The position numbers and the translations under genes are program-made. A DNA stretch of 64,000 nucleotides, from positions 1,984,001-2,048,000 of the forward strand of contig NZ_LT906446.1 of assembly GCF_900187035.1 (NCBI RefSeq), written 5' to 3'. Below, piece by piece: positions 17,051-64,000 of the stretch (positions within the stretch are counted from its first letter, which is position 1; every line of letters starts with the position of its first letter). The stretch comes from Megamonas hypermegale (lineage in GTDB: Bacteria > Bacillota > Negativicutes > Selenomonadales > Selenomonadaceae). The notes beneath the pieces were generated by a model that worked only from the letters and a program-made list of their open reading frames with translations, had not been told where the DNA came from and searched no databases.

Positions 17051-18739
17051 GTGGGTAAAAATATAAATATCATATTAAATAAAAAAGATATAGTAGATAA
17101 ATTTACTATATCCAAATCTACAATATATATTATTTTTGCCATCTTATGTGTATTATATATTTGGCACTTAGGATATTATCCATTATTCAATCCAGATGAA
17201 GGTAGATATGCAGAAATTCCACGTGAAATGTTATTTAGTGGCAATTTTATTACGCCACATTTAAATGGTGTGGAATATTTTGAAAAGCCAGCTTTGCAAT
17301 ATTGGATTACGGCAATATCTATGCTTATTTTTGGTGAAAATGAATTTGCAGTGAGATTATTTCCAGCGTTATGTGCTTTAGGTGGTGTTTTTTGTACATA
17401 TTATTTAGGTACAAAAATGTTTAATCGTAAAACAGGTCTATTAGCTAGCATTATTTTAGCAACATCATTTTTATATTTGATAATTGGTTCTTTAAATATT
17501 TTAGATATGCCTGTATCTCTTTTTATAACGCTGTGTATGGTATCGTTTTATCAATTTAGTGTTACACAAAAATCTAAGTTTTTATATATTTTTTATGCAT
17601 CTATGGCATTTGGGGTATTAACAAAAGGGCTTGTTGCTATCGTTTTTGCAATAGCGATTGCAGTGATATATGCTATATGCACTAAACAATTTAAATTGAT
17701 ATGGAAACTTTTTTCACCTATTGGTATTAGTATTTTTTTAATAATTTGCGTACCTTGGTTTTATCTTGTTTGTAGGGATAATCCAGATTTCTTTTATTTC
17801 TTTTTCATTCATGAACATTTTTTGCGCTATACAACTACTACGCATCATCGATATGCTCCAGCATACTTTTTTATACCATGTATAATTTTAGGTATTTTCC
17901 CATGGACGGGCTTTTTATTTGCTTCAGTATCGTTAAGAAAAATATGGGCTAGATTAAAAAATAGTTTTAGATATAATCAATATATTTACTTAATTATTTG
18001 GTTTAGTATAGTATTTATTTTTTATTCATTATCTGATTCTAAGTTAGTACCGTATATCATACCGTGTTTTCCACCTTTAGCCATATTGATTGCTAGTAGA
18101 TTGGCTAATTTAGATAAAGATAATATCAATTTAAAAATACCTTTAATAATAAATGCAGTTATAGCTTTTTGTATTGTTTTGGCTTTGACAATTACAGTAG
18201 TAAAAAGTGATTTTATAACTGTTCGAGAATTTATGTTATTTGGCAGTCCTTTAATCTGTGTAGTGCTTATTTCAAATATTATTAGTTTAGTTTTGTGGTT
18301 TAGGTATAAAAATGCTTATCAAATTATTGTAATAACTATTATTTCAGCAATATTATTTAGCTTTTCTGTACAACCGATAATGACAGAAGTAGCAGAACAT
18401 CGTAGTGGAAAAGATGTTGCTCAAGTGGTTAATTTATGGAAAAATCCAGATACACTTATTATTTGTTATCAGGATTATTTACAAGATTTACCATTTTATA
18501 CGAAATCACGAATTGCACTTTACGATTATTATGGTGAATTGGAATTTGGTTCAAAACATGAAAGTGGTCAAAATTGGTTTTTTAATAAAACAGATTTACT
18601 AAAAGCTTGGCAAAATAATGAGAATGTTATTTTAGTAGTGCCTCAAAAGAGAAAAGAAGATTGTTTGGAAACATTGAATATCGATTTAGATAAAGTTGAG
18701 TATAAAGATTTTGAACGATATATTGTAATTAAGCGATAA
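17051..18739 (+). CDS. ArnT-like family 39 glycosyltransferase (paralogue of the gene at 28438)
   Basis: A 562-aa polytopic inner-membrane protein of the ArnT/PMT (GT39/GT83) type. After a first membrane segment it has the periplasmic acceptor loop NPDEGRYAEIPREML and GVEYFEKPALQYW, the catalytic acidic motif of lipid-linked sugar transferases, then about ten more membrane segments and a soluble C-terminal domain (SDSKLVPYI before it). It probably transfers L-Ara4N or a related sugar from undecaprenyl phosphate to lipid A or another envelope acceptor. The start is GTG at 17051, with AGGAGG 10 nt upstream; the overlapping ATG at 17049 is in a frame that stops at once. It is monocistronic. Confidence 0.85.
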   Translation: MGKNINIILNKKDIVDKFTISKSTIYIIFAILCVLYIWHLGYYPLFNPDEGRYAEIPREMLFSGNFITPHLNGVEYFEKPALQYWITAISMLIFGENEFAVRLFPALCALGGVFCTYYLGTKMFNRKTGLLASIILATSFLYLIIGSLNILDMPVSLFITLCMVSFYQFSVTQKSKFLYIFYASMAFGVLTKGLVAIVFAIAIAVIYAICTKQFKLIWKLFSPIGISIFLIICVPWFYLVCRDNPDFFYFFFIHEHFLRYTTTTHHRYAPAYFFIPCIILGIFPWTGFLFASVSLRKIWARLKNSFRYNQYIYLIIWFSIVFIFYSLSDSKLVPYIIPCFPPLAILIASRLANLDKDNINLKIPLIINAVIAFCIVLALTITVVKSDFITVREFMLFGSPLICVVLISNIISLVLWFRYKNAYQIIVITIISAILFSFSVQPIMTEVAEHRSGKDVAQVVNLWKNPDTLIICYQDYLQDLPFYTKSRIALYDYYGELEFGSKHESGQNWFFNKTDLLKAWQNNENVILVVPQKRKEDCLETLNIDLDKVEYKDFERYIVIKR

Positions 18740-20215: not shown

Positions 20216-20244
20216 TTTACAAATAATTTTTTATGTGCTATATT
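20216..20244 (+). promoter_or_regulatory. Probable sigma-A promoter of the transketolase cluster
   Basis: TTTACA (20216-20221), 17-nt spacer, TATATT (20239-20244). The rest of the 20009-20215 gap is very AT-rich and shows nothing else I can support. Confidence 0.6.
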
Positions 20245-20263
20245 AAAGCCATAGGTTATGGGA

Positions 20264-20294
20264 TATGTGATATACCATAGATGGTATGTGATAT
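20264..20294 (+). promoter_or_regulatory. Candidate operator in the transketolase leader
   Basis: Two direct copies of TATGTGATAT (20264-20273 and 20285-20294) are 21 bp apart, and a palindrome ATACCAT-AG-ATGGTAT (20272-20287) sits between and partly over them. The block lies just downstream of the expected transcription start, a position suited to repression. A close relative (TATGTGAAAT) is found in front of the GntR gene at 28247..28238. Confidence 0.5.
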
Positions 20295-20315
20295 TGAAAA
20301 CGAGAAGGTGTAGTT

Positions 20316-21149
20316 ATGAAAAATACGTCTATTAGTGAATTAAAACAAATTGCTATCGAACTTAGAAAATCGGCTGTTACTATGATTTATGAAGCGCAAT
20401 CCGGTCATCCAGGTGGAGCTTTATCGGCAGCAGATATTGTAACTGCTTTATATTTTAAAGAAATGAATATTGATCCGAAAAATCCAAAATGGGAAGACCG
20501 AGACCGCTTTGTTTTATCAAAAGGTCATGTTTGCCCAATACTTTATGCAGTATTAGGTAAATTAGGATATTTTCCTGAAGAATACCTCCATAAGTTAAGA
20601 CAAGAAGGCTCTATTTTGCAAGGACATCCTGATATGAAAAAATGCCCAGGTATTGATATCTCCACCGGCTCTTTAGGACAAGGTTTATCTTGTGCTGTAG
20701 GTATGGCTATAGCGGGCAAACGTGACCATAAAGATTATCGAGTATTTGCTATGGTCGGTGATGGTGAATGCGATGAAGGTCAAATTTGGGAAGCAGTAAT
20801 GACTGGTTATAAATATAATTTAGATAATTTAGTTGTATTCGTAGATAATAATAGACTTCAGTTGGACGGAACTTGTGAAGAAGTAATGCCAAATATTGAT
20901 TTAGGAAAACGCTTTGAAGCATTTGGTTATGAAGTATTTTACATTGATGGTCATAACATGGAAGAAATTGTAGCTACACTTGATAAAATTAGAGCTTCTC
21001 ATAATGGACTTCCAAAAGCTGTTATTGCCAATACTATTAAAGGTAGAGGCGTTTCCTTCATGGAAAATCAAGTTGGTTGGCATGGTGTTGCTCCTAATGA
21101 TGAACAATATAAACAAGCAATGGAAGAACTCGAAGGAGGTTTAAAATAA
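20316..21149 (+). CDS. Transketolase, N-terminal (thiamine-diphosphate-binding) subunit
   Basis: A 277-aa protein with the transketolase N-terminal signature: SGHPGGALSAADI, RDRFVLSKGHVCPILYAVL, and the ThDP/Mg motif GDGECDEGQIWEA ... NLVVFVDNNRLQLDG (GDG-N pattern). It forms a split transketolase with the next gene, overlapping it by one base (TAATG). It transfers two-carbon ketol units between a ketose donor and an aldehyde acceptor. Its position in a cluster with a dehydrogenase and transporters suggests a dedicated catabolic transketolase rather than the housekeeping pentose-phosphate enzyme. GAGAAGGTG lies upstream of the ATG. Confidence 0.93.
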   Translation: MKNTSISELKQIAIELRKSAVTMIYEAQSGHPGGALSAADIVTALYFKEMNIDPKNPKWEDRDRFVLSKGHVCPILYAVLGKLGYFPEEYLHKLRQEGSILQGHPDMKKCPGIDISTGSLGQGLSCAVGMAIAGKRDHKDYRVFAMVGDGECDEGQIWEAVMTGYKYNLDNLVVFVDNNRLQLDGTCEEVMPNIDLGKRFEAFGYEVFYIDGHNMEEIVATLDKIRASHNGLPKAVIANTIKGRGVSFMENQVGWHGVAPNDEQYKQAMEELEGGLK

Positions 21150-22087
21150 TGGATACTACAAAAAAAATCGCTACACGTAATGGCTTCGGTGAAGAAATTG
21201 TTGAACTTGGAAAAAATAACGATAAAATTTATGTTATTGATAATGATATAGGTAAATCCTGCAAAACAAGTGCTTTTATGAAAGCATTACCACAGCAATA
21301 TATAAATGTAGGTATTGCTGAACAAAATGGTGCAGGTGTGGCAGCAGGTCTTGCTACTTGTGGCAAAATTCCATTTGTTGTAACTTATGCAGTTTTTGGT
21401 TCGTTACGTATGTGTGAACAAATTCGTCAAGAAGTTTGTTATCCTAATTTAAACGTAAAATTTGCTTGTTCACATGGCGGTGTTACTCCAGCAAATGATG
21501 GAGCAAGCCATCAAGCAATTGAAGATATGGGTGTTCTTCGTACTATTCCAAATATGACTGTAATTATGCCAGCAGATTATTACGCTGCTAAAAAATTGGT
21601 AAAAGCAGCTGCTGAAATGTATGGTCCTGTATTTTTAAGATTTACGCGTGATAACATCCCTGTTATTTATGATGAAAATACTGAATTTGAAATTGGTAAA
21701 GCTGTAAAACTTTCTGACGGTAAAGATGTAGCAATCATTGCTAATGGTGATACAGTTCGTTTAGCTATCGAAGCAAAAGAAACTTTGGAAAAAGAAGGAA
21801 TTTCTGTTCGTCTTCTTGATATGCATACAATTAAACCACTTGATAAAGAAGCAGTTATCTCTTGTATAAATGATATTGGTAAAATTATTACAGTAGAAGA
21901 CCATAATATTATTAATGGTTTAGGTAGTGCGGTTTGTGAAGTGGCAGCAGAAATGGGTAAAGGTAAAGTTTACCGTATTGGTATTCAAGACCAATTTGGT
22001 CAGTCTGCTCCATATGAAAGATTACTTGCCATGAATGGTATCACTGTAGAAAATATTATCGAACAAGCGAAAGCTATTCAAAAATAA
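21149..22087 (+). CDS. Transketolase, C-terminal (pyrimidine-binding and C-terminal) subunit
   Basis: A 312-aa partner of the preceding subunit. It has the pyrimidine-binding domain with GIAEQNGAGVAAGLA (catalytic Glu of the family), CSHGGVTPANDGASHQAIEDMGVLR, and a C-terminal Rossmann-like domain (VRLLDMHTIKPLD, VEDHNIINGLGSAV). Start overlaps the N-subunit stop by one base, with GAAGGAGG just upstream. Followed by an unusual 16-bp inverted repeat. Confidence 0.93.
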   Translation: MDTTKKIATRNGFGEEIVELGKNNDKIYVIDNDIGKSCKTSAFMKALPQQYINVGIAEQNGAGVAAGLATCGKIPFVVTYAVFGSLRMCEQIRQEVCYPNLNVKFACSHGGVTPANDGASHQAIEDMGVLRTIPNMTVIMPADYYAAKKLVKAAAEMYGPVFLRFTRDNIPVIYDENTEFEIGKAVKLSDGKDVAIIANGDTVRLAIEAKETLEKEGISVRLLDMHTIKPLDKEAVISCINDIGKIITVEDHNIINGLGSAVCEVAAEMGKGKVYRIGIQDQFGQSAPYERLLAMNGITVENIIEQAKAIQK

Positions 22088-22105
22088 AAGTAGTTAATCT
22101 ACCCC

Positions 22106-22168
22106 AGTAGTGTAATATTTTGTATTTATATGGATACGAATTTTAATGATATAAAATATTACACTACT
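22106..22168. repeat. Perfect 16-bp inverted repeat in the transketolase-SDR gap
   Basis: AGTAGTGTAATATTTT (22106-22121) and its exact complement (22153-22168) flank a 31-nt loop. No T-run follows, so it is not a standard terminator. It may be an mRNA-stabilising or processing hairpin, or a widely spaced operator. Confidence 0.6.
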
Positions 22169-22228
22169 TACAAATTAATTAATTTTTGAAATGAATTTTC
22201 ATATAAAATAGAGAAGGAGTCTTTAATT

Positions 22229-22987
22229 ATGTTAGATTTTACAAATCAGGTTGTCATCGTAACAGGTAGTGGTTCTCCAAAAGGTATCGGTCGTACTATT
22301 GCAAAAACTTTTGCTAATCAAGGAGCAAAGCTAGTTATTCTTGATATTAATGAAGCTGGTGTAAATGAAACAGTTGATATTATTAAACAAAGTGGTCATG
22401 AAGCTATTGGTATTAAGACAGATATTACATCTAAAGAATCTGTTGATGCAATGGTACAGACTGTTTTAGATACATTTGGACGTATTGATGTATTGGTAAA
22501 CAATGCAGGTATTTCTCAAAAAGTAACAGTAGAAGATATGACTTTAGATGATATGAAACGTATTTTTAACGTAAATATGTTTGGCTTATTCTTATGTTCT
22601 CAAGCTGTATTAAAACCTATGAAAGCTCAAAAATATGGCCGTATCATTAGCTTATCTTCTGTTTCTGGTAAGCGTGGTGGTGGTATTTTTGGAGGTGCTC
22701 ATTATTCTGCATCTAAAGCAGCTGTATTAGGTTTCTCTAAAAATCTTGCCCGTGAAGTAGCTATAGATGGTATTACTGTAAACTGTGTATGTCCAGGTCT
22801 TATTAATACTGAAATATGGAAGTCTTTACCAAAAGAACAAGCTGATAAAATTATTTCTGATATTCCGGTTGGTCGTCCAGGTGAAACTCAAGAAATTGCA
22901 AATACAATTTGTTTCTTAGGTTCAAAAGAAGCATCTTATATTACTGGTGAAGATGTAGATATTAATGGTGGCTCTCATATGGATTAA
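22229..22987 (+). CDS. Short-chain dehydrogenase/reductase (SDR), substrate unknown
   Basis: A 252-aa classical SDR with the nucleotide-binding loop TGSGSPKGIGR, an acidic residue after beta-2 (VILDINEAG, favouring NAD), NNAGIS, the catalytic Ser in SLSSVSG and the YSASK Tyr-Lys pair, and the C-terminal YITGEDVDINGG. It resembles sugar, polyol and gluconate-5-dehydrogenase type SDRs, but the substrate cannot be assigned. It lies between the transketolase genes and the permease/TRAP genes. GAGAAGGAG lies upstream of the ATG. Confidence 0.88.
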   Translation: MLDFTNQVVIVTGSGSPKGIGRTIAKTFANQGAKLVILDINEAGVNETVDIIKQSGHEAIGIKTDITSKESVDAMVQTVLDTFGRIDVLVNNAGISQKVTVEDMTLDDMKRIFNVNMFGLFLCSQAVLKPMKAQKYGRIISLSSVSGKRGGGIFGGAHYSASKAAVLGFSKNLAREVAIDGITVNCVCPGLINTEIWKSLPKEQADKIISDIPVGRPGETQEIANTICFLGSKEASYITGEDVDINGGSHMD

Positions 22988-23035
22988 ATAACAGGCTATC
23001 CTTGCTATTTTCTTTAATAATATACCCCCATCTTT

Positions 23036-23071
23036 AAAAACAGCAGGATATAAACTATCCTGCTGTTTTTA
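23036..23071 (+). terminator. Intrinsic terminator after the SDR gene
   Basis: AACAGCAGGATA / TATCCTGCTGTT followed by TTTT. It divides the cluster into transketolase-SDR and permease-TRAP units. Confidence 0.85.
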
Positions 23072-23228
23072 TGTAAATTATAATTTGTATAAATAATGAA
23101 CGTGATTAAATTGTCTGTAATTACTAAATATTATTTAAAAATTATACATATAAAAGTTTAATTTTTATTAAGGTAATATATGATTAATTAGTATTTCAAA
23201 AAGATATTTATAAATAAGAGGTGATTAA

Positions 23229-24515
23229 ATGAATTCAGCAGCGATAACTGCTCTTAGTATATTTATAGTAGTGTATATTTTTATAGTATCGGAAAAAATA
23301 CATCGTACGGTAATTGCTTTAGTTGGAGCAATGCTTATGATTCTTTGTGGTATTTTAACACAAGAAATGGCTATACATCATATTGACTTTAATACAATAG
23401 GGCTGTTAATAGGTATGATGATTGTTGTAAGTATTACAGGTACAACAGGATTATTTAATTATTTAGCAATATGGGCAGCTAAAAAAGTAAAAGCTAAACC
23501 ATTAAGGTTATTAGTTGCGTTATCTTTATTAACAGGGGTGTGTTCAGCTTTTTTAGATAATGTTACAACTGTATTGTTGACTGTTCCTTTAACATTTAGT
23601 ATTACAAAAAAATTAAATATACCAGTAAAACCTTTTTTAATAGCACAAATTCTTTCATCTAATATTGGTGGGACATCTACACTTATAGGAGACCCACCGA
23701 ATATCATGATTGGTAGTGCTGTACCTGAAATGGATTTTATGGCATTTATAAGTAATTTAGGTATAGTATGTATAGTTATTTTTGCAGTGACTATGGCTAT
23801 TTTACTTTTATTATATCGTAAACAATTAGTTACGGTGCCTCAGTTACAAGCAAAAGTCATGGCTATGAATGAATATGATGAAATAAAAGATAGTGCATTA
23901 TTGAAAAAATGTTTGTTCGTTTTATTTTTGATAATTGTTACTTTTGTATTACATTCACAATTACATTTGGAGTCTGCAACAGTAGCTTTATCAGGAGCAG
24001 CAATTTTAATGCTTATAAGTATTTCAGGAAATGAAAGAAAAATATCCAAGGTATTAAGTGAAGTTGAATGGTTGGCAATATTCTTTTTTGCAGGTTTATT
24101 TATTTTAGTAGGGGGTTTAGTAGAAACTGGTGTTATAAAAATGATGGCAGAACAATTATTAGAATTAACATCAGGAGATTTAACAAAGACGACAATGTTG
24201 ATTTTATGGCTAAGTGCTATAGCTTCAGCATTTATTGATAATATTCCTTTTGTTGCAACTTTGATACCTATGATAAAGGATATGGGAACGATGGGGATGA
24301 GCAACTTAGAACCATTATGGTGGGCACTGTCTTTAGGTGCTTGTCTAGGGGGTAATGGAACTATTATTGGAGCAAGTGCAAATGTTGTAGTAGCGAGTAT
24401 GGCAGCTATGTATGGCGAAAAACTTTCTTTTGGCGGATATTTTATAGTAGCTTTTCCTATAATGATAATATCAATTGTTATAAGTACAATATATTTACTT
24501 TTGTTTTATTTATAA
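23229..24515 (+). CDS. SLC13/ArsB-NhaD superfamily permease
   Basis: A 428-aa protein with about eleven membrane segments. It has the duplicated signature of the ion-transporter superfamily: GTSTLIGDPPNIMIGSA in the first half, and FIDNIPFVATLIP with GGNGTIIGASANVV in the second. Members move arsenite, Na+/H+ or dicarboxylates. In this context an organic-anion or Na+-coupled role is plausible, but the substrate is not shown by sequence. AAGAGGTG lies before the ATG. It is probably co-transcribed with the TRAP genes, 57 bp downstream. Confidence 0.85.
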   Translation: MNSAAITALSIFIVVYIFIVSEKIHRTVIALVGAMLMILCGILTQEMAIHHIDFNTIGLLIGMMIVVSITGTTGLFNYLAIWAAKKVKAKPLRLLVALSLLTGVCSAFLDNVTTVLLTVPLTFSITKKLNIPVKPFLIAQILSSNIGGTSTLIGDPPNIMIGSAVPEMDFMAFISNLGIVCIVIFAVTMAILLLLYRKQLVTVPQLQAKVMAMNEYDEIKDSALLKKCLFVLFLIIVTFVLHSQLHLESATVALSGAAILMLISISGNERKISKVLSEVEWLAIFFFAGLFILVGGLVETGVIKMMAEQLLELTSGDLTKTTMLILWLSAIASAFIDNIPFVATLIPMIKDMGTMGMSNLEPLWWALSLGACLGGNGTIIGASANVVVASMAAMYGEKLSFGGYFIVAFPIMIISIVISTIYLLLFYL

Positions 24516-24571
24516 AATGAAAATTTATTATAGTAGCTATGTTATTAAATTATATACGGGGGATAATTGCT

Positions 24572-25597
24572 ATGAAAAAATTATCATTTATATTAATAGT
24601 TTTTTTATGTGCTTTTTTTACAGGGTGTTCATCAGATAGTGACAAATCTGTTAATAATAATAATAACAGTGAATATCAAAAAATTGAATTAGTAATGGCA
24701 GTCAATGGTACGGATACTCAGATTGATACTAAAGTTGCTAATAAATTTTCTGAACTTGTAAGTGAAGCATCTGGCGGTAATGTTACTGTATCAGTATATC
24801 CAAATGACCAATTGGCAAGCGGTAATGCTACAAAGGGTATTGAAATGTTAGCAGTAGGTTCGGTGGATTTAGCAGCATACGCTACTAGTGTCATGGCGGC
24901 TTTGGATGAAAAAATTGGTATAGCGACAATACCGTATACTTTTGATAATTATCAAGAAGCAAGACAGATTATTGATACAACAGGTGGAGAATTTTATAAA
25001 GAACGCTTAGCAGAAAAAGGAATTACTTATTTAGGTTCATTTCATAATGGTTTTAGACAAATTTCAAATAGTAAACATGAAGTGCGTACACCAGAAGATG
25101 TACAAGGTTTAAAAATTCGTGTTCCAGGTGGAGAAGTTTATATGGATTTTTTCCGTACATTAGGTGCTGACCCAATAGCTATGAGTTGGAGTGAAGTATT
25201 CACAGCTATTCAACAAGGTACTATTGATGGACAAGAAAATGGTGTTAGTATTACAAAATCTTCCAAGATGAATGAAGTACAAAAATATATAACACTGTGG
25301 AATTATTCATATGAAAATGATTTGTTTATAGCTAATTCTAAAATATGGAATTCACTTGAACCTAAAACACAAGAATTATTGAGAGAAAAAGCAAGAGAAG
25401 CTTGTGAGTGGGGCCGCGATCAAGTAGAGCAAGAAGAAGATGTAATAATTCAAGAATTTAGAGATGATGAAATTATAGTTACAGAACTTTCTCCAACAGA
25501 ATTAAATGCATTTAAAGAAGCTGTTGAACCAGTTAGAGAAAAATTTATTCAACAGTATGGTGCAGATAATTATGCTGCGTTTTGTTTAAATCCGTGA
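24572..25597 (+). CDS. TRAP transporter solute-binding lipoprotein, DctP family
   Basis: A 341-aa extracytoplasmic receptor. It has a signal peptide with lipobox FTGC (Cys about residue 19) and the DctP-fold blocks FSELVSEASGG, GVEMLAVGS-like EMLAVGSVDLAA, and LKIRVPGGEVYMDFFRTLGADPIAMSWSE-type ligand region. The Arg in KIRVP is the usual carboxylate-binding residue, suggesting an organic acid ligand. I chose the ATG at 24572 with GGGGGA upstream; the open frame to 24539 would place residues before the signal peptide. Confidence 0.9.
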   Translation: MKKLSFILIVFLCAFFTGCSSDSDKSVNNNNNSEYQKIELVMAVNGTDTQIDTKVANKFSELVSEASGGNVTVSVYPNDQLASGNATKGIEMLAVGSVDLAAYATSVMAALDEKIGIATIPYTFDNYQEARQIIDTTGGEFYKERLAEKGITYLGSFHNGFRQISNSKHEVRTPEDVQGLKIRVPGGEVYMDFFRTLGADPIAMSWSEVFTAIQQGTIDGQENGVSITKSSKMNEVQKYITLWNYSYENDLFIANSKIWNSLEPKTQELLREKAREACEWGRDQVEQEEDVIIQEFRDDEIIVTELSPTELNAFKEAVEPVREKFIQQYGADNYAAFCLNP

Positions 25598-25616
25598 TAA
25601 GGAGAGGAGTTTTATA

Positions 25617-26141
25617 ATGTCTACATTCGATAAAATATTTGGCAAGATTGAAGAGATTATTGCTGGTATATGTTTAATTGTAATGTCAGTATTAGCATTT
25701 GCTAATGTTTGTGCACGTTATTTCTTCCATGCGTCATTTTCTTTTTCAGATGAGATAACGACATATCTATTTGTTTTATTAAGTCTTATGGGGGCAGCTA
25801 TAGCGGCTAAACGTCATGAACATTTAGGATTTACTGTTATTGAAGATTTAGTTTCTCCAAAAATAAAACGAGTTTTAAATTTTATAAGTTACTTAATGGC
25901 AGTAGTTTTTTCGGCATTGATTTTTTACTATGGAATTTTAATGGTAATTAGTCAATATAATTTGGAACAAAAAACAGCTAATATGCAGTGGCCAGAATGG
26001 ATTTTTGGTTCTTTTGTTCCAATTGGAGCGTTTTTTGTACTTGTAAGATTTTTACAGATACTCATTCATATTATTAAAGGTAAAAATCGCAAAGAAGAAC
26101 GTAAAGCTTTAGAACAACAACGTCAGGAGGAGATGATGTAA
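25617..26141 (+). CDS. TRAP transporter small permease, DctQ family
   Basis: A 174-aa protein with four membrane segments and the DctQ features ANVCARYFFHASFSFSDEIT and GAAIAAKRHEHLG. It pairs with the DctM subunit two bases downstream. AAGGAGAGGAG lies before the ATG. Confidence 0.92.
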   Translation: MSTFDKIFGKIEEIIAGICLIVMSVLAFANVCARYFFHASFSFSDEITTYLFVLLSLMGAAIAAKRHEHLGFTVIEDLVSPKIKRVLNFISYLMAVVFSALIFYYGILMVISQYNLEQKTANMQWPEWIFGSFVPIGAFFVLVRFLQILIHIIKGKNRKEERKALEQQRQEEMM

Positions 26142-26142
26142 G

Positions 26143-27429
26143 ATGATATCGGCAATTTTATTTATATCATTTGCTTTTTTTCTATTAATTGGTACGCCTA
26201 TTGCAATCTGTCTTGGAATGTCTAGTGTATTTGCTATAATCGCTGATAGTGCAGGTCGACCAATGGAAGCAGTACTCAGTGTTGTTCCAATGTTAGTATC
26301 TTCATCAAGTAGTAAGTTCGTATTATTAGCAATTCCATTCTTTATCTTGAGCGGTAATATCATGGAAAAAGCTGGTATTTCTGAAAAGTTAATTCGCTTA
26401 GCGGAAGTTTGCGTTGGTCATATAACAGGCGGTTTAGCTATTATTTGCGTTGTTGTTGCATGTTTTTTCGCAGCTATATCAGGTTCGGGTCCAGCAACAG
26501 TAGCAGCTTTAGGTATGATTATAATTCCAGCAATGATTTTTGCAGGATATAATCCTCAGTTTTCATCGGCTTTAATGGCGGCAGCTTCGGCAATTGGTGT
26601 AATTATTCCGCCTAGTATAACATTTGTTATTTTTGGTTCTATCACAGATACTTCAATTGGTTCATTATTTATTGCTGGCTTAATTCCAGGAATTATAATG
26701 GGTATCGGTCTTTTAGCTGTTGCTTTGTGGAAAGGCCGTAAAATGAAATTGGAAGTAATGGAAAAAGCAACAAATAAAGAAAGATGGCTCGCTTTTAAAG
26801 ATGCTATTTGGGGTCTTATGATGCCAGTAATTATCCTTGGTGGTATTTATGGTGGTATTTTTACGCCTACAGAAAGTGCAGCTGTTGCTGTTGTTTACGG
26901 TTTATTTGTTGGTATATTCATTTATAAGAAAATACATTTTAAAGAATTTTGTCATTTATTAATTGATTCTGCTAGTACTACTGCCGTTGTTATGTTTATA
27001 ACAGCTGCAGCAACTATTTTTGCTTATGTACTTACACGTGCTAAATTAAATACAATTATTGGGGATGCAATTTATAATTTCACTGGAGATAGTACAATTT
27101 TATTTTTGATATTGGTAAATATCGTATTTTTAATTGCAGGTTGCTTCCTTGATTCAACGTCAGCACTTTATATATTTGTTCCATTGTTTATGCCTGTAGC
27201 ATTGACTTTAGGAATTGACCCTATTCATTTTGGCGTTGTTATTATTGTAAATTTAGCAATTGGTTTATTTACGCCACCTGTAGGTATGAATTTATATGTT
27301 GCCTGTGGATTAGGAAAAGTTTCGTTAAAGGAACTTTCTATAGCTATATTACCTTTTGTTATAGTGTCTCTTGTAGTGTTATTGCTGATAACTTACATTC
27401 CTCAAATTTCACTTTTCCTCGTTCAATAA
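26143..27429 (+). CDS. TRAP transporter large permease, DctM family
   Basis: A 428-aa protein with about twelve membrane segments. DctM signatures include SGSGPATVAALG, IGVIIPPSITFV, FTPTESAAVAVVYG and GLFTPPVGMNLYVA. It forms a Na+-driven uptake system with the preceding DctQ and DctP proteins. It ends the cluster and is followed by a strong terminator. Confidence 0.94.
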   Translation: MISAILFISFAFFLLIGTPIAICLGMSSVFAIIADSAGRPMEAVLSVVPMLVSSSSSKFVLLAIPFFILSGNIMEKAGISEKLIRLAEVCVGHITGGLAIICVVVACFFAAISGSGPATVAALGMIIIPAMIFAGYNPQFSSALMAAASAIGVIIPPSITFVIFGSITDTSIGSLFIAGLIPGIIMGIGLLAVALWKGRKMKLEVMEKATNKERWLAFKDAIWGLMMPVIILGGIYGGIFTPTESAAVAVVYGLFVGIFIYKKIHFKEFCHLLIDSASTTAVVMFITAAATIFAYVLTRAKLNTIIGDAIYNFTGDSTILFLILVNIVFLIAGCFLDSTSALYIFVPLFMPVALTLGIDPIHFGVVIIVNLAIGLFTPPVGMNLYVACGLGKVSLKELSIAILPFVIVSLVVLLLITYIPQISLFLVQ

Positions 27430-27438
27430 ATATTTTTT

Positions 27439-27468
27439 AGGAATGAGCTTATGCTCATTCCTTTTTTT
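27439..27468 (+). terminator. Intrinsic terminator of the TRAP operon
   Basis: AGGAATGAGC-TTA-GCTCATTCCT type hairpin followed by seven Ts. Confidence 0.9.
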
Positions 27469-27473
27469 ATAAA

Positions 27474-27513
27474 AAAATACTTCTAAGTTTTATATTAAAC
27501 TTAGAAGTATTTT
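27474..27513 (-). terminator. Intrinsic terminator of the GntR gene
   Basis: AAATACTTCTAAGTTT / AAACTTAGAAGTATTT, 16-bp stem with T-rich flank on the minus strand, directly after the regulator stop. Confidence 0.85.
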
Positions 27514-27516
27514 AAT

Positions 27517-28212
27517 TTATTCTTTTGCAAAAGAATCAACTAATGTATCTCTAACAGTATTAAAAACATTAATTACATCGCGTTGTTCAATTAAATTTAC
27601 GATAGCATAGTGATTTTTTAAACATAAATCAATACCACCATCTTTTTGCAGTACTTTTTTTATTGATGGTTCAAACATTAGAACAAGTGTTTCTAAAATG
27701 GATTCTATCAATTTATTATGTACGCATTTCGCAATAGATAAGTGAAATTGCATATCGAGTTTTATTAAATCATCTATCGAACCTTGATTTGATTTGGCAA
27801 TATTATTTGTTTCATCTACTAAATCGCGAATGGATTGTATTTCTTCTGGCGAAGCTTTATATATAGCCATAATAATAACAATAGATTCTACCATTACACG
27901 TAATTCGAAAACATCAGTTGTATTTTTGGGGTCAAGAATTAAACGAAATATGAGAGGATTGAATACTTCGTGCGATATTGTATCTTGTAAAAAAGTACCT
28001 TGACCACGTTTTGTTTTAACTACTCCCATAGCATTTAATACACGAATAGCTTCTCTAAGTGAATTTCTACCGACAGCGAGTTGTTCGCATAGTTCAGCTT
28101 CTGATGGAAGTTTGTCACCAGGTTTAAAATCACCTTCAATAATAGCTTGAGAGAGTTGTGTGATAATTTCATTTACTAAAGTATCAGAATTTCCAATTTT
28201 AGCTAATCCCAT
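27517..28212 (-). CDS. FadR/FCD-type GntR family transcriptional regulator
   Basis: A 231-aa regulator. It has an N-terminal GntR winged helix (GDKLPSEAELCEQLAVGRNSLREAIRVLNAMGVV) and an all-helical FCD domain (VFELRVMVESIVI ... DLDMQFHLSIAKCVHN-like metal/ligand-binding block). It is convergent with the TRAP operon and is the obvious candidate regulator for the transketolase/TRAP cluster; FCD regulators usually sense sugar acids. I chose the ATG at 28212 with GTTGGTG 5 nt upstream; the upstream TTG at 28230 has no ribosome site. Confidence 0.88.
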   Translation of the reverse strand: MGLAKIGNSDTLVNEIITQLSQAIIEGDFKPGDKLPSEAELCEQLAVGRNSLREAIRVLNAMGVVKTKRGQGTFLQDTISHEVFNPLIFRLILDPKNTTDVFELRVMVESIVIIMAIYKASPEEIQSIRDLVDETNNIAKSNQGSIDDLIKLDMQFHLSIAKCVHNKLIESILETLVLMFEPSIKKVLQKDGGIDLCLKNHYAIVNLIEQRDVINVFNTVRDTLVDSFAKE

Positions 28213-28237
28213 AATTTCACCAACTAACAAATTATTT

Positions 28238-28399: not shown

Positions 28400-28437
28400 T
28401 ATAGCGCTTGTTATTTTTTAATAAAGGAGGCTATTTT

Positions 28438-30087
28438 TTGCGAGATTTTCTTTTACGTAATAAAGGTTTTATTGTCGGAATATGTATTTTGGCTGTTTTT
28501 TATCTGTATTTAGCTCATTTAGGTTCATATCATTTAATGGACCCAGATGAAGGTAGATATCATGAAATTCCGCGTGAAATGTTACTCACTGGTGATTTTA
28601 TTACACCTCATTTAAATGGCGTGGAATATTTTGAAAAACCAGCACTTCAATATTGGGCTACAGCGATTATCATGAAGATTTTTGGTGTAACTGAGTTTGC
28701 AGGACGAGTTTTCCCTGCTCTTTCAGCTATTGGATGCGTAGGACTTACTTTTTGTCTTGGTTCTATGATGTATACGCGCCGAGTAGGTTTATTGGCGGCA
28801 GCTGTTTTAGCTACATCATGCTTAAATCTTATTGTAGCTTCAATCAATATCTTAGATATGGCACTTACATTTTTTATGACAGGGTGTATGGTGTCTTTTT
28901 ATGCTTTTGAAAGAACCGAGAAGAAAAAATATTTACTGTTATTTTATATAGCAATGGGCTTAGGTGTACTTACAAAAGGTCTTGTGGCAATTATTTTGCC
29001 ATTAGGTATTTTGTTTTGGTATACGATTTTTACAAAAAGACCACGTTTATTTTTAAAGCTTTTTTATTTGCCGGGTATAATAGCTTTCTTGATAGTTACA
29101 GTACCATGGTTTTATCTCGTGTGTCAGGCAAATCCTGATTTCTTCTATTTCTTTTTCATTCGAGAACATTTCTTGCGTTTTACAACAAAGATGCATGATA
29201 GGTTTCAGCCTTGGTGGTTTTTCATACCATTTGTTTTCATTGGTATGCTTCCGTGGACTGGATTTTTGGTATCTTTATTCAGCAAAAAAGGCGTTATACG
29301 CAAGAGTGTATCAGAAAGAAATCGCTTTGATATAATTTATTTGTTAGTATGGTTTGCTGTAATTTTCGTCTTTTATTCGATTTCAGATTCCAAATTAGTT
29401 CCGTATATAATGCCATGTTGGATGCCGATGGCTGTATTAATTGCGGCTTCAATAAAACGATTTGAAGTAGAAAATTCTTGGCTTTGCCATAGTTTTTTAA
29501 TTAACAGTATTTTGTGCTTAGGTTTCGTCTTTGCTCTTGTGGGCTATGTTTTGATGTCTAATTATTTAACATTAGATGAATTCATTGCTGAAGGTGGTAT
29601 GCTCACCGCTGCACTGTTTTTAGGAACTTTAGCGGCAATCATCACTTGGTATAAAACGAGACGTTTTCGTTGTACAGCAACTGTGCTGTGTATTATGGGA
29701 TTTTTCTTTGGTCTTGGTTTGCACGATGTACAGCAGCAAATTCATAATAATCAATCAGCATATTATGTTAGTCAGAAAATAAATCAGTTAAATCCTCAAG
29801 ATAGTTTGATTGTAAATTATGGAGAATTCTATCACGGAATTGTATTTTATACAGACCAGCGTGTAGCGATGGCTGATTTTAAAGGTGAATTGGAATTTGG
29901 TTTATCTCATCCTTCTGGGGATGGTTGGTATTTTGATGGCAATCAGCTCAACGATTTGTGGAACAGTCAAAAGCGTATTATAATTGTAGTGAAAGACCGT
30001 TATAAAGATAAATGTCTTAGTGTATTATCTACTCCAGCGAAAGAAATGATAACTGAAGGAGCATACACTATTTTAGTTAATAAATAA
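28438..30087 (+). CDS. arnT: Undecaprenyl phosphate-L-Ara4N:lipid A transferase (ArnT)
   Basis: A 549-aa polytopic glycosyltransferase, clearly paralogous to the gene at 17051 along its whole length (shared DPDEGRY.EIPREML, GVEYFEKPALQYW, SDSKLVPYI and a C-terminal soluble domain). It heads an operon that encodes the L-Ara4N pathway, which makes transfer of L-Ara4N to lipid A the natural role. The first catalytic loop Asp-Glu pair is present. The start is TTG at 28438, with AAAGGAGG 7 nt upstream; the frame is open to 28408 but without a ribosome site. Confidence 0.9.
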   Translation: MRDFLLRNKGFIVGICILAVFYLYLAHLGSYHLMDPDEGRYHEIPREMLLTGDFITPHLNGVEYFEKPALQYWATAIIMKIFGVTEFAGRVFPALSAIGCVGLTFCLGSMMYTRRVGLLAAAVLATSCLNLIVASINILDMALTFFMTGCMVSFYAFERTEKKKYLLLFYIAMGLGVLTKGLVAIILPLGILFWYTIFTKRPRLFLKLFYLPGIIAFLIVTVPWFYLVCQANPDFFYFFFIREHFLRFTTKMHDRFQPWWFFIPFVFIGMLPWTGFLVSLFSKKGVIRKSVSERNRFDIIYLLVWFAVIFVFYSISDSKLVPYIMPCWMPMAVLIAASIKRFEVENSWLCHSFLINSILCLGFVFALVGYVLMSNYLTLDEFIAEGGMLTAALFLGTLAAIITWYKTRRFRCTATVLCIMGFFFGLGLHDVQQQIHNNQSAYYVSQKINQLNPQDSLIVNYGEFYHGIVFYTDQRVAMADFKGELEFGLSHPSGDGWYFDGNQLNDLWNSQKRIIIVVKDRYKDKCLSVLSTPAKEMITEGAYTILVNK

Positions 30088-61357: not shown

Positions 61358-61380
61358 AACCCACAGTTTAACTGGGGGTT
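61358..61380 (+). repeat. IS200 left-end hairpin
   Basis: AACCC / GGGTT and CAGT / ACTG pair around TTA with one A-G mismatch. Shares CAGTTTAACTGG with the right-end hairpin. Confidence 0.8.
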
Positions 61381-61406
61381 GTTAAGAATTCTTAAAGAAA
61401 AGGAAA

Positions 61407-61462
61407 GAACCTCCGTACTACAATATAAGTGGTCTGGCAACCATATAAAGTATAGGAGGTTC
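61407..61462 (+). promoter_or_regulatory. Hairpin that hides the tnpA ribosome-binding site
   Basis: GAACCTCC (61407-61414) pairs with GGAGGTTC (61455-61462), which contains the tnpA Shine-Dalgarno. Further inner pairing is possible (TACT/AGTA). Such sequestration is known to keep IS200 transposase translation low. Confidence 0.8.
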
Positions 61463-61468
61463 GTGTCA

Positions 61469-61933
61469 ATGAATGATATAAAAAGTTTATCACATAGTAA
61501 GTGGAGATGTAAATATCATATTGTTTTTGCACCAAAATACCGTAGACAAGTTATTTATAAAAAAATAAGAGTAGATATAGGAAAGATATTAAGACAGTTA
61601 TGCGAAAGAAAAAAAGTAGAAATAATAGAAGCAGAATGTTGCCCAAATCATATCCATATGTTAGTGGCAATACCACCGCATTTGAGTGTAGCAGGATTTA
61701 TGGGGTATTTGAAAAGTAAGAGTAGTTTGATGATATTTGATAGACATGCAAATTTAAAATATAAGTATGGAAATAGACATTTTTGGTGCAGAGGATATTA
61801 TGTAGATACAGTAGGAAAATATGAAAATGCGATAAAAGAATATATAAAAAACCAATTAGAAGAAGACATAATGATAGATCAAATAAGTTTAAAAGAATAT
61901 ATAGACCCGTTTACAGGTAGCAAGGGACAATAA
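61469..61933 (+). CDS. tnpA: IS200 transposase TnpA (HUH, Y1)
   Basis: A 154-aa Y1 transposase: WRCKYHIVFAPKYRR at the N-terminus, the HUH motif in CPNHIHML, and the catalytic Tyr region RGYYVDTVG. Full length for IS200, with no frameshift, so it may be active. The ATG at 61469 follows AGGAGG by 9 nt; the open frame to 61379 runs through the leader hairpin. Confidence 0.95.
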   Translation: MNDIKSLSHSKWRCKYHIVFAPKYRRQVIYKKIRVDIGKILRQLCERKKVEIIEAECCPNHIHMLVAIPPHLSVAGFMGYLKSKSSLMIFDRHANLKYKYGNRHFWCRGYYVDTVGKYENAIKEYIKNQLEEDIMIDQISLKEYIDPFTGSKGQ

Positions 61934-62087: not shown

Positions 62088-63497
62088 TCAATAATGTTTT
62101 TGCCATTGATGATGAAATGTTCCTTCACGGTCAATGCGTTTATACGTATGAGCACCGAAATAATCTCTTTGGGCTTGTATGAGATTTGCTCCGACTGTTT
62201 TTGTACAAAGACCATCAATATAAGCCATTGCATTAGAAAATGCTGGTATTGGTACACCAAAGCTAACTGCTTTAGCAATGGTTTTCCTAAGGCTTTGTTG
62301 GTTTTCTTGCACTTTATGGAAGAAGAAATCATCTTCAAGTAAATTTTCTAGGTTAGGATTTTTTTGATAAGCATTTGTAATATTATTTAAGAATTTAGCT
62401 TTGATGATACAACCAGCTCTAAAGATAGAAGCTACTGAACCTAAATCTAAATGCCAGTTATGAATTTCAGAGGCACTTTTATATAATTCAAATCCTTGTG
62501 TGTAAGCTGCTATTTTAGCAGTGTACAATGAGCGACGTACATCTTCTACAAAGTTTTCATCAATTTCAACAGGCAATGTTTGTTTTAAATCACTATCTGC
62601 GAATTGCTGGCGTTTTGCGTAAAAAGAACTGATGTTACGAGCATTACAAGCACTCGTCATAATGGATGTATTAACACCTTGTTCTAATGCGGCGATGCTA
62701 GTCCAGCGACCAGTTCCTTTTTGTCCAGCACTGTCGAGAATTTTGTCGACGAGATAACCTTCAGCCATATCGTCAGTTTCTTTTAAGATATCAGCTGTTA
62801 TGCTGATTAAGAAGCTACTTAATTCGCCTTGGTTCCATTCATGAAAGATTTGGGAAATTTGTTCGTTAGATAAATTGCCTACGTTTTTTAATAAAAGGTA
62901 AGCTTCAGCGATTAGTTGCATATCAGCGTATTCAATGCCGTTATGAACCATTTTTACATAATGACCAGCGCCATCTTCACCGATATAAGTACAACATGGT
63001 TTACCATCATCAGCTTTGGCTGCGATTGCTTCCATTACAGGTTGAATTTCTTTATAGCTTTCAGCGTTACCTCCTGGCATTAAAGCTGGTCCATTTAACG
63101 CGCCTTCTTCACCACCAGAAACGCCGATACCAAAATATTTAAATCCTTTGCTTGTCACATAATCATAGCGGCGTTGTGTATCTTTATAAAATGAATTGCC
63201 ACCGTCCATGATGATATCATCTGGGTCAAGATGTGGAAGTAAGCTGTCGATTACTGAATCAACGGCTTTGCCGGCTGTTACCATGATGAAAAATTTACGA
63301 GGACGTGCAACTGAATTTATAAGTGATTGAATATCATAATAAGCTGTGATATTTTTGTGCGGATGATTTTTAATAAATTTATCTGTTAAATCGGGCGTAT
63401 AGTTGTATACAGAAACTTTGAAGTTATGATTTGCCATGTTAAGGGCAAGACAACTACCCATAACACCCATACCAATAACGGCTATATTTGCATTCAT
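62088..63497 (-). CDS. gnd: 6-phosphogluconate dehydrogenase, decarboxylating
   Basis: A 469-aa enzyme with the NADP loop VIGMGVMGSCLALNMANH, MVTAGKAVDSVID, GDGGNSFY-like MDGGNSFYKDT, the catalytic block GVSGGEEGALNGPALMPGG and MVHNGIEYADMQL, and the family's C-terminal FHHQW. It oxidises 6-phosphogluconate to ribulose-5-phosphate. Start at 63497 with GGAGG 8 nt upstream; the in-frame TTG at 63512 is part of that site. It follows the gluconate permease gene by 17 bp. The IS200 element begins within about 10 bp of its stop, but the C-terminus appears complete. Confidence 0.95.
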   Translation of the reverse strand: MNANIAVIGMGVMGSCLALNMANHNFKVSVYNYTPDLTDKFIKNHPHKNITAYYDIQSLINSVARPRKFFIMVTAGKAVDSVIDSLLPHLDPDDIIMDGGNSFYKDTQRRYDYVTSKGFKYFGIGVSGGEEGALNGPALMPGGNAESYKEIQPVMEAIAAKADDGKPCCTYIGEDGAGHYVKMVHNGIEYADMQLIAEAYLLLKNVGNLSNEQISQIFHEWNQGELSSFLISITADILKETDDMAEGYLVDKILDSAGQKGTGRWTSIAALEQGVNTSIMTSACNARNISSFYAKRQQFADSDLKQTLPVEIDENFVEDVRRSLYTAKIAAYTQGFELYKSASEIHNWHLDLGSVASIFRAGCIIKAKFLNNITNAYQKNPNLENLLEDDFFFHKVQENQQSLRKTIAKAVSFGVPIPAFSNAMAYIDGLCTKTVGANLIQAQRDYFGAHTYKRIDREGTFHHQWQKHY

Positions 63498-63514
63498 AAA
63501 AAATACCTCCAAAT

Positions 63515-64000
63515 TTAAAATAAAATGATATTAAGTATTATAACACCTATTAAACCGGCAACAGCAATGATTGTTTCAAGGGCACACCAAGTACGCATGG
63601 TGCCTTTGATACTTAATCCAAAAAATTCTTTAAATAACCAAAAGCCAGGGTCGCTAGGTGGACTTAAAATTACGCTACCAGCACCAACAGCTAAAACCAT
63701 AAGTTCAGGACTTACACCAGTAAGTGGAATAAGTGGAGCTATAATGCCACCGGCAGTGAGTGCTGCAACTGTAGCTGAACCTACAGCAATACGAATAACA
63801 GCAGCAATAAGCCAACCCATAAATAATGGAGATAAAGCTGCGTCTTGAATAAGTGTGCCGATATAGGTACCGAGACCACTGTCAATTAAGATTTGTTTTA
63901 ATACTCCTCCACCAGCAACAACAAGTAAAATCATGGCTATAGTTTTGACAGCTCCATCAACGCTTTCCATTACTTCTTTCATAGATTTACCACGATTTAG
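63515..64000 (-). CDS. GntP-family gluconate:H+ symporter, C-terminal part (5' end outside window)
   Basis: The frame is open to the window edge, reading RGKSMKEVMES before the first internal Met, so this is the C-terminal 161 residues of a longer permease (family about 440 aa). It has AMILLVVAGGGVLKQILIDSG, GSATVAALTAGGIIAPL and SVILSPPSDPGFWLFKEFFGLS, typical of GntP/GntT. Operon with gnd supports gluconate uptake feeding the pentose phosphate route. Confidence 0.9.
   Translation of the reverse strand, partial: LNRGKSMKEVMESVDGAVKTIAMILLVVAGGGVLKQILIDSGLGTYIGTLIQDAALSPLFMGWLIAAVIRIAVGSATVAALTAGGIIAPLIPLTGVSPELMVLAVGAGSVILSPPSDPGFWLFKEFFGLSIKGTMRTWCALETIIAVAGLIGVIILNIILF

Follow-up and report, generated by a model that had tools for sequence, protein, structure and literature searches.

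A split transketolase cassette in Megamonas hypermegale and its putative role in the catabolism of an aldonate-like anion

In the sulfo-transketolase route, a dedicated split transketolase (TK), SqwGH, takes a ketol unit from a negatively charged sugar that bears no phosphate and passes it to glyceraldehyde-3-phosphate (G3P); xylulose-5-phosphate is thereby formed without a kinase acting on the substrate, and the SF transketolase is reported to carry the head-group motif R-A-F-D-R in place of the R-S-F-H-R of canonical TKs (PMC11659671). In this study, we analysed a split TK and its gene neighbourhood in Megamonas hypermegale, whose genome is a single contig of 2.23 Mb, within a stretch of 64,000 nucleotides (positions 1,984,001 to 2,048,000 of NZ_LT906446.1, hereafter the window, to whose numbering coordinates refer unless the contig is named). 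Two further systems serve for comparison: the D-apiose route, in which the split TK AptAB handles apulose-4-phosphate and which needs an isomerase and a kinase, and gluconate/L-idonate catabolism (IdnD, IdnO, GntK and Gnd), in which a short-chain dehydrogenase (SDR) and a medium-chain dehydrogenase (MDR) act at hexonate C5 after GntP-type uptake, and the ketone is reduced and phosphorylated.

An initial annotation of this DNA had listed a two-subunit TK, an SDR, a permease, a complete tripartite ATP-independent periplasmic (TRAP) transporter and an FCD-type regulator gene, and reading of the open reading frames (ORFs) together with domain models recovered all eight genes where it had placed them (Table 1). 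The TK is encoded as separate N and C chains (TKN and TKC), in which the TK domains are recognised and the sugar-site residues conserved, the TKC start sharing one base with the TKN stop, and DctP, DctQ and DctM are encoded together as a TRAP transporter. On balance, it appears probable that these genes constitute a modular cassette for an aldonate-like anion, which would be imported, oxidised and then cleaved through ketol transfer by the dedicated split TK. Four points set out below are read from the sequences themselves: which genes are present, how far they are conserved, that the TK belongs to a dedicated clade and that its pocket is altered.

Orthologous TKN was detected in 11 of 121 family genomes including its own (nine intact at at least 65% identity, two broken). 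TRAP, TK and SDR occur together in 8/10 family relatives with an orthologous TK (in G120 across a contig break, and in two genomes with broken genes), the usual order being DctP-DctQ-DctM-TKN-TKC-SDR, unlike that of the window. Since the trio is kept in these relatives and recurs in distant Bacillota, the grouping of TK, SDR and TRAP is not due to chance. Neither TKN nor DctP was matched in the same-genus genome G007 at the thresholds applied, and TRAP and SDR were not found at five more family TK loci (L074-L078); the patchy spread within the family suggests that the cassette was gained by transfer or is frequently lost. The broken cassettes comprise G019 (L073), with several genes split over frames, and G112 (L072), with a stop inside TKN.

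To extend the comparison, GTDB genomes were scanned with a TKC alignment and the best 80 of 588 related loci were analysed, being classed by TKC identity as cassette-like (55 loci, at least 69%), intermediate (3 loci) or generic (22 loci, below 53%). Neighbours were counted from tblastn maps within 6.5 kb on either strand, and a flank filter (over 3.5 kb on each side) left 38 cassette-clade loci. Of these, 27 have an SDR and 26 have TRAP; with all families counted, 36 have an oxidoreductase, 34 a transporter and 33 at least one of each. The generic split-TK loci of this comparison scored 0/13 for SDR, 0/13 for TRAP and 0/13 for oxidoreductase plus transporter. Without the filter, the 55 clade loci gave 31 with SDR, 38 with TRAP and 41 with oxidoreductase plus transporter. 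Among the hosts named in the records are Lachnospiraceae, Oscillospiraceae, Selenomonadaceae, Bacillus, Metabacillus, Oceanobacillus, Paenibacillus, Clostridium drakei and Megasphaera paucivorans. This TKC is rare overall, since at E 1e-120 it was matched only in its own and one other of 398 phylum genomes, a sample that thus added no further neighbourhoods.

Sole-copy status, which the initial annotation had named among the grounds that would refute its proposal, does not apply to the split TK: a full-length TK of approximately 660 residues is encoded at 1386766 of the contig. The best solved matches of the two chains are the N-chain of the Carboxydothermus hydrogenoformans split TK for TKN (6yak) and 6yaj for TKC (E 4e-90). 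In a quick tree, generic TKC lie on one side of a single branch, and cassette TKC together with the three intermediate sequences on the other (SH-aLRT 100). For comparison of the pocket, 51 cassette TKC (the window and 50 of the 55 loci, five with stops or fewer than 280 residues being excluded) were set against 22 generic ones. R10, S37, H109, D117, H121 and R167 are unchanged in 51/51 cassette sequences, and the retention of the phosphate-site residues among them (R10, S37, H109 and R167) fits a phosphorylated acceptor. Tyr80, at the position corresponding to F434 of E. coli, is present in 51/51 cassette TKC, whereas Phe occupies this position in 21/22 generic sequences and in the genome's own full-length TK. 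Additionally, the generic GED loop is replaced by AND (Ala115 in 51/51, Asn116 in 47/51, where 20/22 generic TKC have Glu, and Asp117 in 51/51), and Thr166 and Asp168 stand beside R167 in 51/51. Clade-specific positions account for 7/18 positions within one residue of the six pocket residues (inclusive) against 28/294 elsewhere (Fisher p 0.0016, in a post hoc test set up after the residues had been seen, with the clade representing one lineage), which is suggestive of a concentration of changes around the distal donor pocket.

Further TKC matches were obtained in 13/13 named genomes, ordinary TK, DXS and PDH-like proteins being pooled among them. Many split-TK C-subunit paralogues were observed per genome (L196-L215; G121, G122, G124 and G133), with head-group motifs RAFHR, RSFSR, RSFDR, AFDR, KSFHR, KSPSR and RTMNR, and the neighbourhoods of these paralogues may hold further TK-based routes.

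Importers and dehydrogenases vary around this TK. A GntP permease (above its family cut-off) was found in three clade loci and a D-galactonate-transporter-like permease of the major facilitator superfamily (MFS; below its cut-off) in four, replacing or standing beside the window-type TRAP, and these permeases point to sugar acids as substrates. ABC systems are of the sugar type in L085 and of the Liv type in L120, L126 and L135 (assigned by eye except for the L085 receptor). DctP was accompanied by a PF03616-like permease in six loci (L093, L098, L099, L100, L105 and L129); in these, the receptor gene and that of the glutamate-symporter-like permease adjoin each other as an unusual pair, and neither DctQ nor DctM was matched there. 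Non-SDR oxidoreductases within 9 kb on the same strand comprise Gfo/Idh/MocA proteins (7 loci), ApbA proteins (5 loci) and zinc-dependent alcohol dehydrogenases (Zn-ADH; 6 loci, in L092 at 9 kb), as well as 2-hydroxyacid dehydrogenases resembling glyoxylate/hydroxypyruvate reductase (4/55 clade and 1/22 generic loci). The oxidoreductase type switches at least six times on the TK tree (counted over rows with an oxidoreductase, SDR being taken first where there were several, with the intermediates and generic L158 included). Lactonifactor longoviformis (G122, L159 3685-17233) carries two complete adjacent cassettes, one with an SDR and one with a Zn-ADH, and with different receptors. Because importer and dehydrogenase vary while the TK stays constant, the genes would be best described as a module feeding one ketone to the TK.

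As regards the window SDR, Ser144-Tyr159-Lys163 is invariant in 9/9 aligned SDRs, and among the best 25 of 234 models it passes only the broad models NF005559 and NF009466; it was not recognised as gluconate 5-dehydrogenase by model NF006070 (191.2 bits, cut-off 279). The CitMHS permease is not a core part, and it might be a second importer or an exporter of leftover acid; its relatives (57-58% identity) adjoin the SDR in 2/8 family cassettes (L065 and L072) and 1/55 clade loci (L086).

From these features we infer the substrate class, the direction of the route, the acceptor and the fate of the leftover. The TRAP transporter, replaced in some relatives by a GntP, MFS, ABC or different DctP system, would import the acid. 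At the carbon adjoining the terminal CH2OH, the SDR (elsewhere Gfo/Idh/MocA, ApbA, Zn-ADH or 2-hydroxyacid dehydrogenase) would oxidise the hydroxyl group to a ketone. The split TK would then move the HOCH2-CO- unit to G3P to yield xylulose-5-phosphate, no substrate kinase being needed, and an aldehyde acid shortened by two carbons would be left over, to be reduced or oxidised elsewhere, or exported. TK action on 5-keto-D-gluconate, reported in PMC12016104, was counted in favour of this scheme. In 18/55 clade and 0/22 generic loci, a gene for RpiB, RPE, PFK, PPi-PFK or class II aldolase was found no more than 6.5 kb from the TK (with representatives derived from the clade and thus biased). The absence of kinase, isomerase and aldolase claimed in the initial annotation holds for the window but not for some relatives, which have RpiB, RPE, PFK or class II aldolase by the TK. 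The presence of such pentose-phosphate-type genes fits xylulose-5-phosphate as the TK product; a set of RpiB, RPE, PFK and aldolase can recycle it without transaldolase via sedoheptulose bisphosphate. Candidates for handling the leftover acid are, close to the L116 cassette, PdxA together with a DUF1537 protein that resembles D-threonate kinase but scores below cut-off, PdxA in L098, L099 and L129, an AEC-type carrier in L099 and L129, and glycerate kinases near the TK in L115, L134 and the intermediate locus L131.

Several observations weigh against this scheme. The window holds no gene for the leftover acid (neither PdxA, DUF1537, glycerate kinase nor AEC carrier), and a hairpin divides its TK-SDR block from the transporter genes. 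In two of the ten family relatives (G039 and G069), neither TRAP nor SDR accompanies the TK, and 5/38 well-flanked clade loci lack an oxidoreductase or transporter by count (L087, L104, L106, L113 and L121), although L104 does carry an ApbA-family gene that was missed by the search representative; furthermore, generic locus L158 carries a 2-hydroxyacid dehydrogenase. Only the SDR and TRAP contrast with generic loci is unbiased, because the representatives beyond SDR, TRAP, CitMHS and GntR came from clade loci, which biases the generic zero counts. Finally, the confident predicted model of DctP (pLDDT 89) matches C4-dicarboxylate, sialic-acid, isethionate and sugar-acid receptors, all at Z 36-41, with 31-32% identity to the C4-dicarboxylate receptors PA0884 and PA5167 and 29% to the sugar-acid receptor DctPAm. 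By predicted fold it is as near to C4-dicarboxylate as to sugar-acid receptors; a C4-dicarboxylate substrate of the TRAP genes, the other outcome that the initial annotation had set against itself, is thus fitted by the model about as well as a sugar acid.

A TK donor must read HOCH2-CO-CH(OH)-, with D-threo hydroxyls by general TK preference. When stereochemistry was assigned by hand, this would admit L-idonate, D-gluconate, D-mannonate, D-arabinonate, L-xylonate, L-threonate and D-erythronate as parents of the ketone, and we take the substrate to be an aldonate, most likely one of four to six carbons. A specific version that is possible, though somewhat unlikely, starts from the short acids: L-threonate or D-erythronate (leaving glyoxylate), or D-arabinonate or L-xylonate (leaving tartronate semialdehyde), would undergo oxidation of the penultimate carbon before cleavage by the TK. 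The glyoxylate/hydroxypyruvate-reductase-like dehydrogenases and the neighbouring glycerate kinases mentioned above agree with it, as do DUF1537 four-carbon-acid kinases in 16/20 genomes with cassette or intermediate loci against 3/14 controls, and the sugar-acid receptors among the PDB neighbours of the DctP model. Glycerate kinase was found in 11/11 family genomes searched, own included, against 5/14 controls; however, it is present too in the same-genus genome without a cassette, and none of these genes lies in the window cassette. A tetronate fate via a DUF1537 kinase was discarded for this genome, as it has none.

A second version, which we regard as unlikely, would convert some hexonate, D-gluconate excepted (L-idonate, D-mannonate or 5-keto-D-gluconate itself, for instance), to a 5-ketohexonate, from which the TK would remove C5-6 and leave a four-carbon semialdehyde bound for tetronate or tartrate. 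Beside the reported activity on 5-keto-D-gluconate, it draws on GntP in three loci, on the PdxA and DUF1537 genes of L116 and on Zn-ADH near the TK, with an SDR (L096, L102, L110 and L123) or without (L091), as if C5 epimers fed one ketone; these Zn-ADH score, below cut-off, against the Tdh and L-idonate 5-dehydrogenase models, and the adjacent SDR and Zn-ADH cassettes of Lactonifactor follow the same pattern. Additionally, a LarA-family gene stands upstream in L089 and L092, and this family includes known D-gluconate 2-epimerases (PMC7583248). Against this version, 6-phosphogluconate dehydrogenase (6PGDH) is present in 9/13 named cassette genomes, including Megasphaera paucivorans, which was dropped as a gluconate argument on that ground, and the Megamonas genome, lacking a DUF1537 kinase, has its own gntK-gntP-gnd locus, which makes D-gluconate an unlikely substrate here. 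That locus (L191) is situated approximately 34 kb from the cassette, with gnd and the end of gntP at 62088-64000 and an FGGY gene beyond, to about 2050440 of the contig; the FGGY kinase scores 472 bits against the gluconokinase model (cut-off 649), and the adjoining GntP and Gnd pass theirs. An IS200-like transposase ORF (61379-61933, by eye) lies beside it.

That D- or L-glycerate is oxidised to hydroxypyruvate, from which the TK would hand two carbons on to G3P while CO2 is released, is quite unlikely. Hydroxypyruvate is a classical TK donor, ApbA and 2-hydroxyacid dehydrogenases act on 2-hydroxy acids and stand near the TK in some loci, and the glycerate kinases of L115, L134 and L131 would fit as well; however, the denser clade changes at the distal donor pocket would be needless for a three-carbon donor, and the GntP and D-galactonate-transporter-like permeases suggest longer acids. 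Least probable of all, and very doubtful, is that a TK-SDR unit for a sugar merely adjoins a separate C4-dicarboxylate TRAP operon, as the terminator-like hairpin between the blocks and the receptor identities of DctP would allow, since relatives assigned by record title to Selenomonadaceae and to distant Lachnospiraceae and Oscillospiraceae rearrange the same genes as DctPQM-TKN-TKC-SDR.

The import, oxidation and two-carbon transfer that the initial annotation had joined in one function are thus supported by the architecture seen in the neighbourhood survey it had called for, but a single operon, control by the FCD regulator and an SLC13-like permease found no support. The U-run hairpin between SDR and permease, absent from the output of the terminator scan and picked up as an inverted repeat with a fold, is a probable terminator, so TKN-TKC-SDR and permease-DctPQM are probably two transcription units. 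The GntR/FCD gene is convergent on the transporter genes, behind the terminator that follows dctM, and family membership is what the domain models give for its product, which is at most a candidate regulator of the cassette. The permease passes the CitMHS model and falls short of the DASS model TIGR00785 (97.4 bits, cut-off 198.6). GntR proteins at at least 24% identity occur within 6.5 kb of the TK in 33/55 clade loci, and a search for operators by inverted repeats in this AT-rich region gave nothing convincing. The hairpin between TKC and SDR is possibly a processing site or a mobile repeat. Promoter-like consensus sites number 63 in the region against 53.7 in shuffles, which makes the site ahead of the TK genes a weak candidate. 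The likely DctP start, as read from the sequence, is an inner Met at 24572 (MKKLSFILIVFLCAFFTGC).

Table 1. Positions of cassette genes and candidate signals in the window
Feature	Position	Strand	Basis
Promoter-like site TTTACA-17-TATATT, TG before second hexamer, ahead of TK genes	20216..20244	+	Consensus match only
TKN, transketolase N-terminal subunit, thiamine diphosphate (ThDP)-binding domain	20316..21149	+	PF00456, 193 bits
TKC, transketolase C-terminal subunit, Transket_pyr and Transketolase_C	21149..22087	+	PF02779, PF02780
Hairpin, 20-nt inverted repeat, 95% complementary, between TKC and SDR	22106..22168	+	Fold z -6.1, no U-run
SDR dehydrogenase, classical, catalytic S144-Y159-K163	22229..22987	+	PF13561, 227 bits
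Perfect 16-bp hairpin with U-run, between SDR and permease	23035..23071		-21.9 kcal/mol, z -7.6
CitMHS/ArsB-type permease	23229..24515	+	PF03600, 317 bits (cut-off 31.9)
DctP, TRAP receptor, lipoprotein by N-terminus	24539..25597 (ORF)	+	PF03480, 265.6 bits
DctQ, TRAP small permease	25617..26141	+	PF04290, 110 bits
DctM, TRAP large permease	26143..27429	+	PF06808, 403 bits
Intrinsic terminator 3' of dctM	27439..27462	+	Terminator scan and fold
GntR/FCD regulator	27517..28230	-	PF00392, PF07729; possible ATG start at 28212

Two similar ArnT-like membrane glycosyltransferase genes (17051-18739 and 28408-30087) flank the cassette, the second being followed by aminotransferase, glycosyltransferase and formyltransferase-like genes (all named by eye), and the cassette is placed as if inside a lipid A modification cluster.

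No description of this cassette was found in open-access titles and abstracts, in a search that partly missed the spelling 'split-gene'. We suggest, with doubt slightly uppermost, that it represents an undescribed, widespread Bacillota class in which a specialised TK clade would serve as entry for one ketoaldonate, with interchangeable importers, five dehydrogenase families and a pentose phosphate drain whose enzymes are often encoded nearby; more broadly, the split-TK paralogues with varied motifs in single gut genomes would each open a separate kinase-free route. If so, the kinase-free TK entry described for sulfoquinovose (PMC11659671) would extend to carboxylated sugars, suggesting a way in which certain Bacillota of the gut and soil use an acid unnamed in their annotation. 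The clade signature (Tyr80 and the AND loop of TKC) would allow annotators to separate cassette enzymes from generic transketolase.

Among the described systems, the Carboxydothermus hydrogenoformans enzyme is two-chained like the cassette TK but has the generic pocket (GED loop and Phe). The gluconate/L-idonate system resembles the cassette in its oxidoreductase pair (SDR and MDR) and in GntP uptake, but it has a kinase where the cassette has a TK. The apiose route likewise has a split TK dedicated to an unusual sugar, and its kinase and isomerase are not in the window set. Copies with AFDR or SFDR motifs, at 37-39% identity to the window TKC, were seen among 20 of 28 non-cassette matches from four genomes (two in F. 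contorta and one in Blautia schinkii), and both of these genomes hold the cassette as well. With sulfo-TK catabolism the cassette appears to share the principle of ketol transfer, the ketone being made by a proposed dehydrogenase rather than by isomerases. Its TKC reads R-S-Y-H-R in 51/51 sequences as opposed to the R-A-F-D-R of SqwGH, and its eight window genes include no isomerase, whereas the sulfo-TK route has the SQ isomerase SqvD and the SEu isomerase SqwI. Because it departs from that route in both head-group motif and isomerases, the best reading by analogy is that the cassette works like sulfo-TK catabolism without being a member of it.

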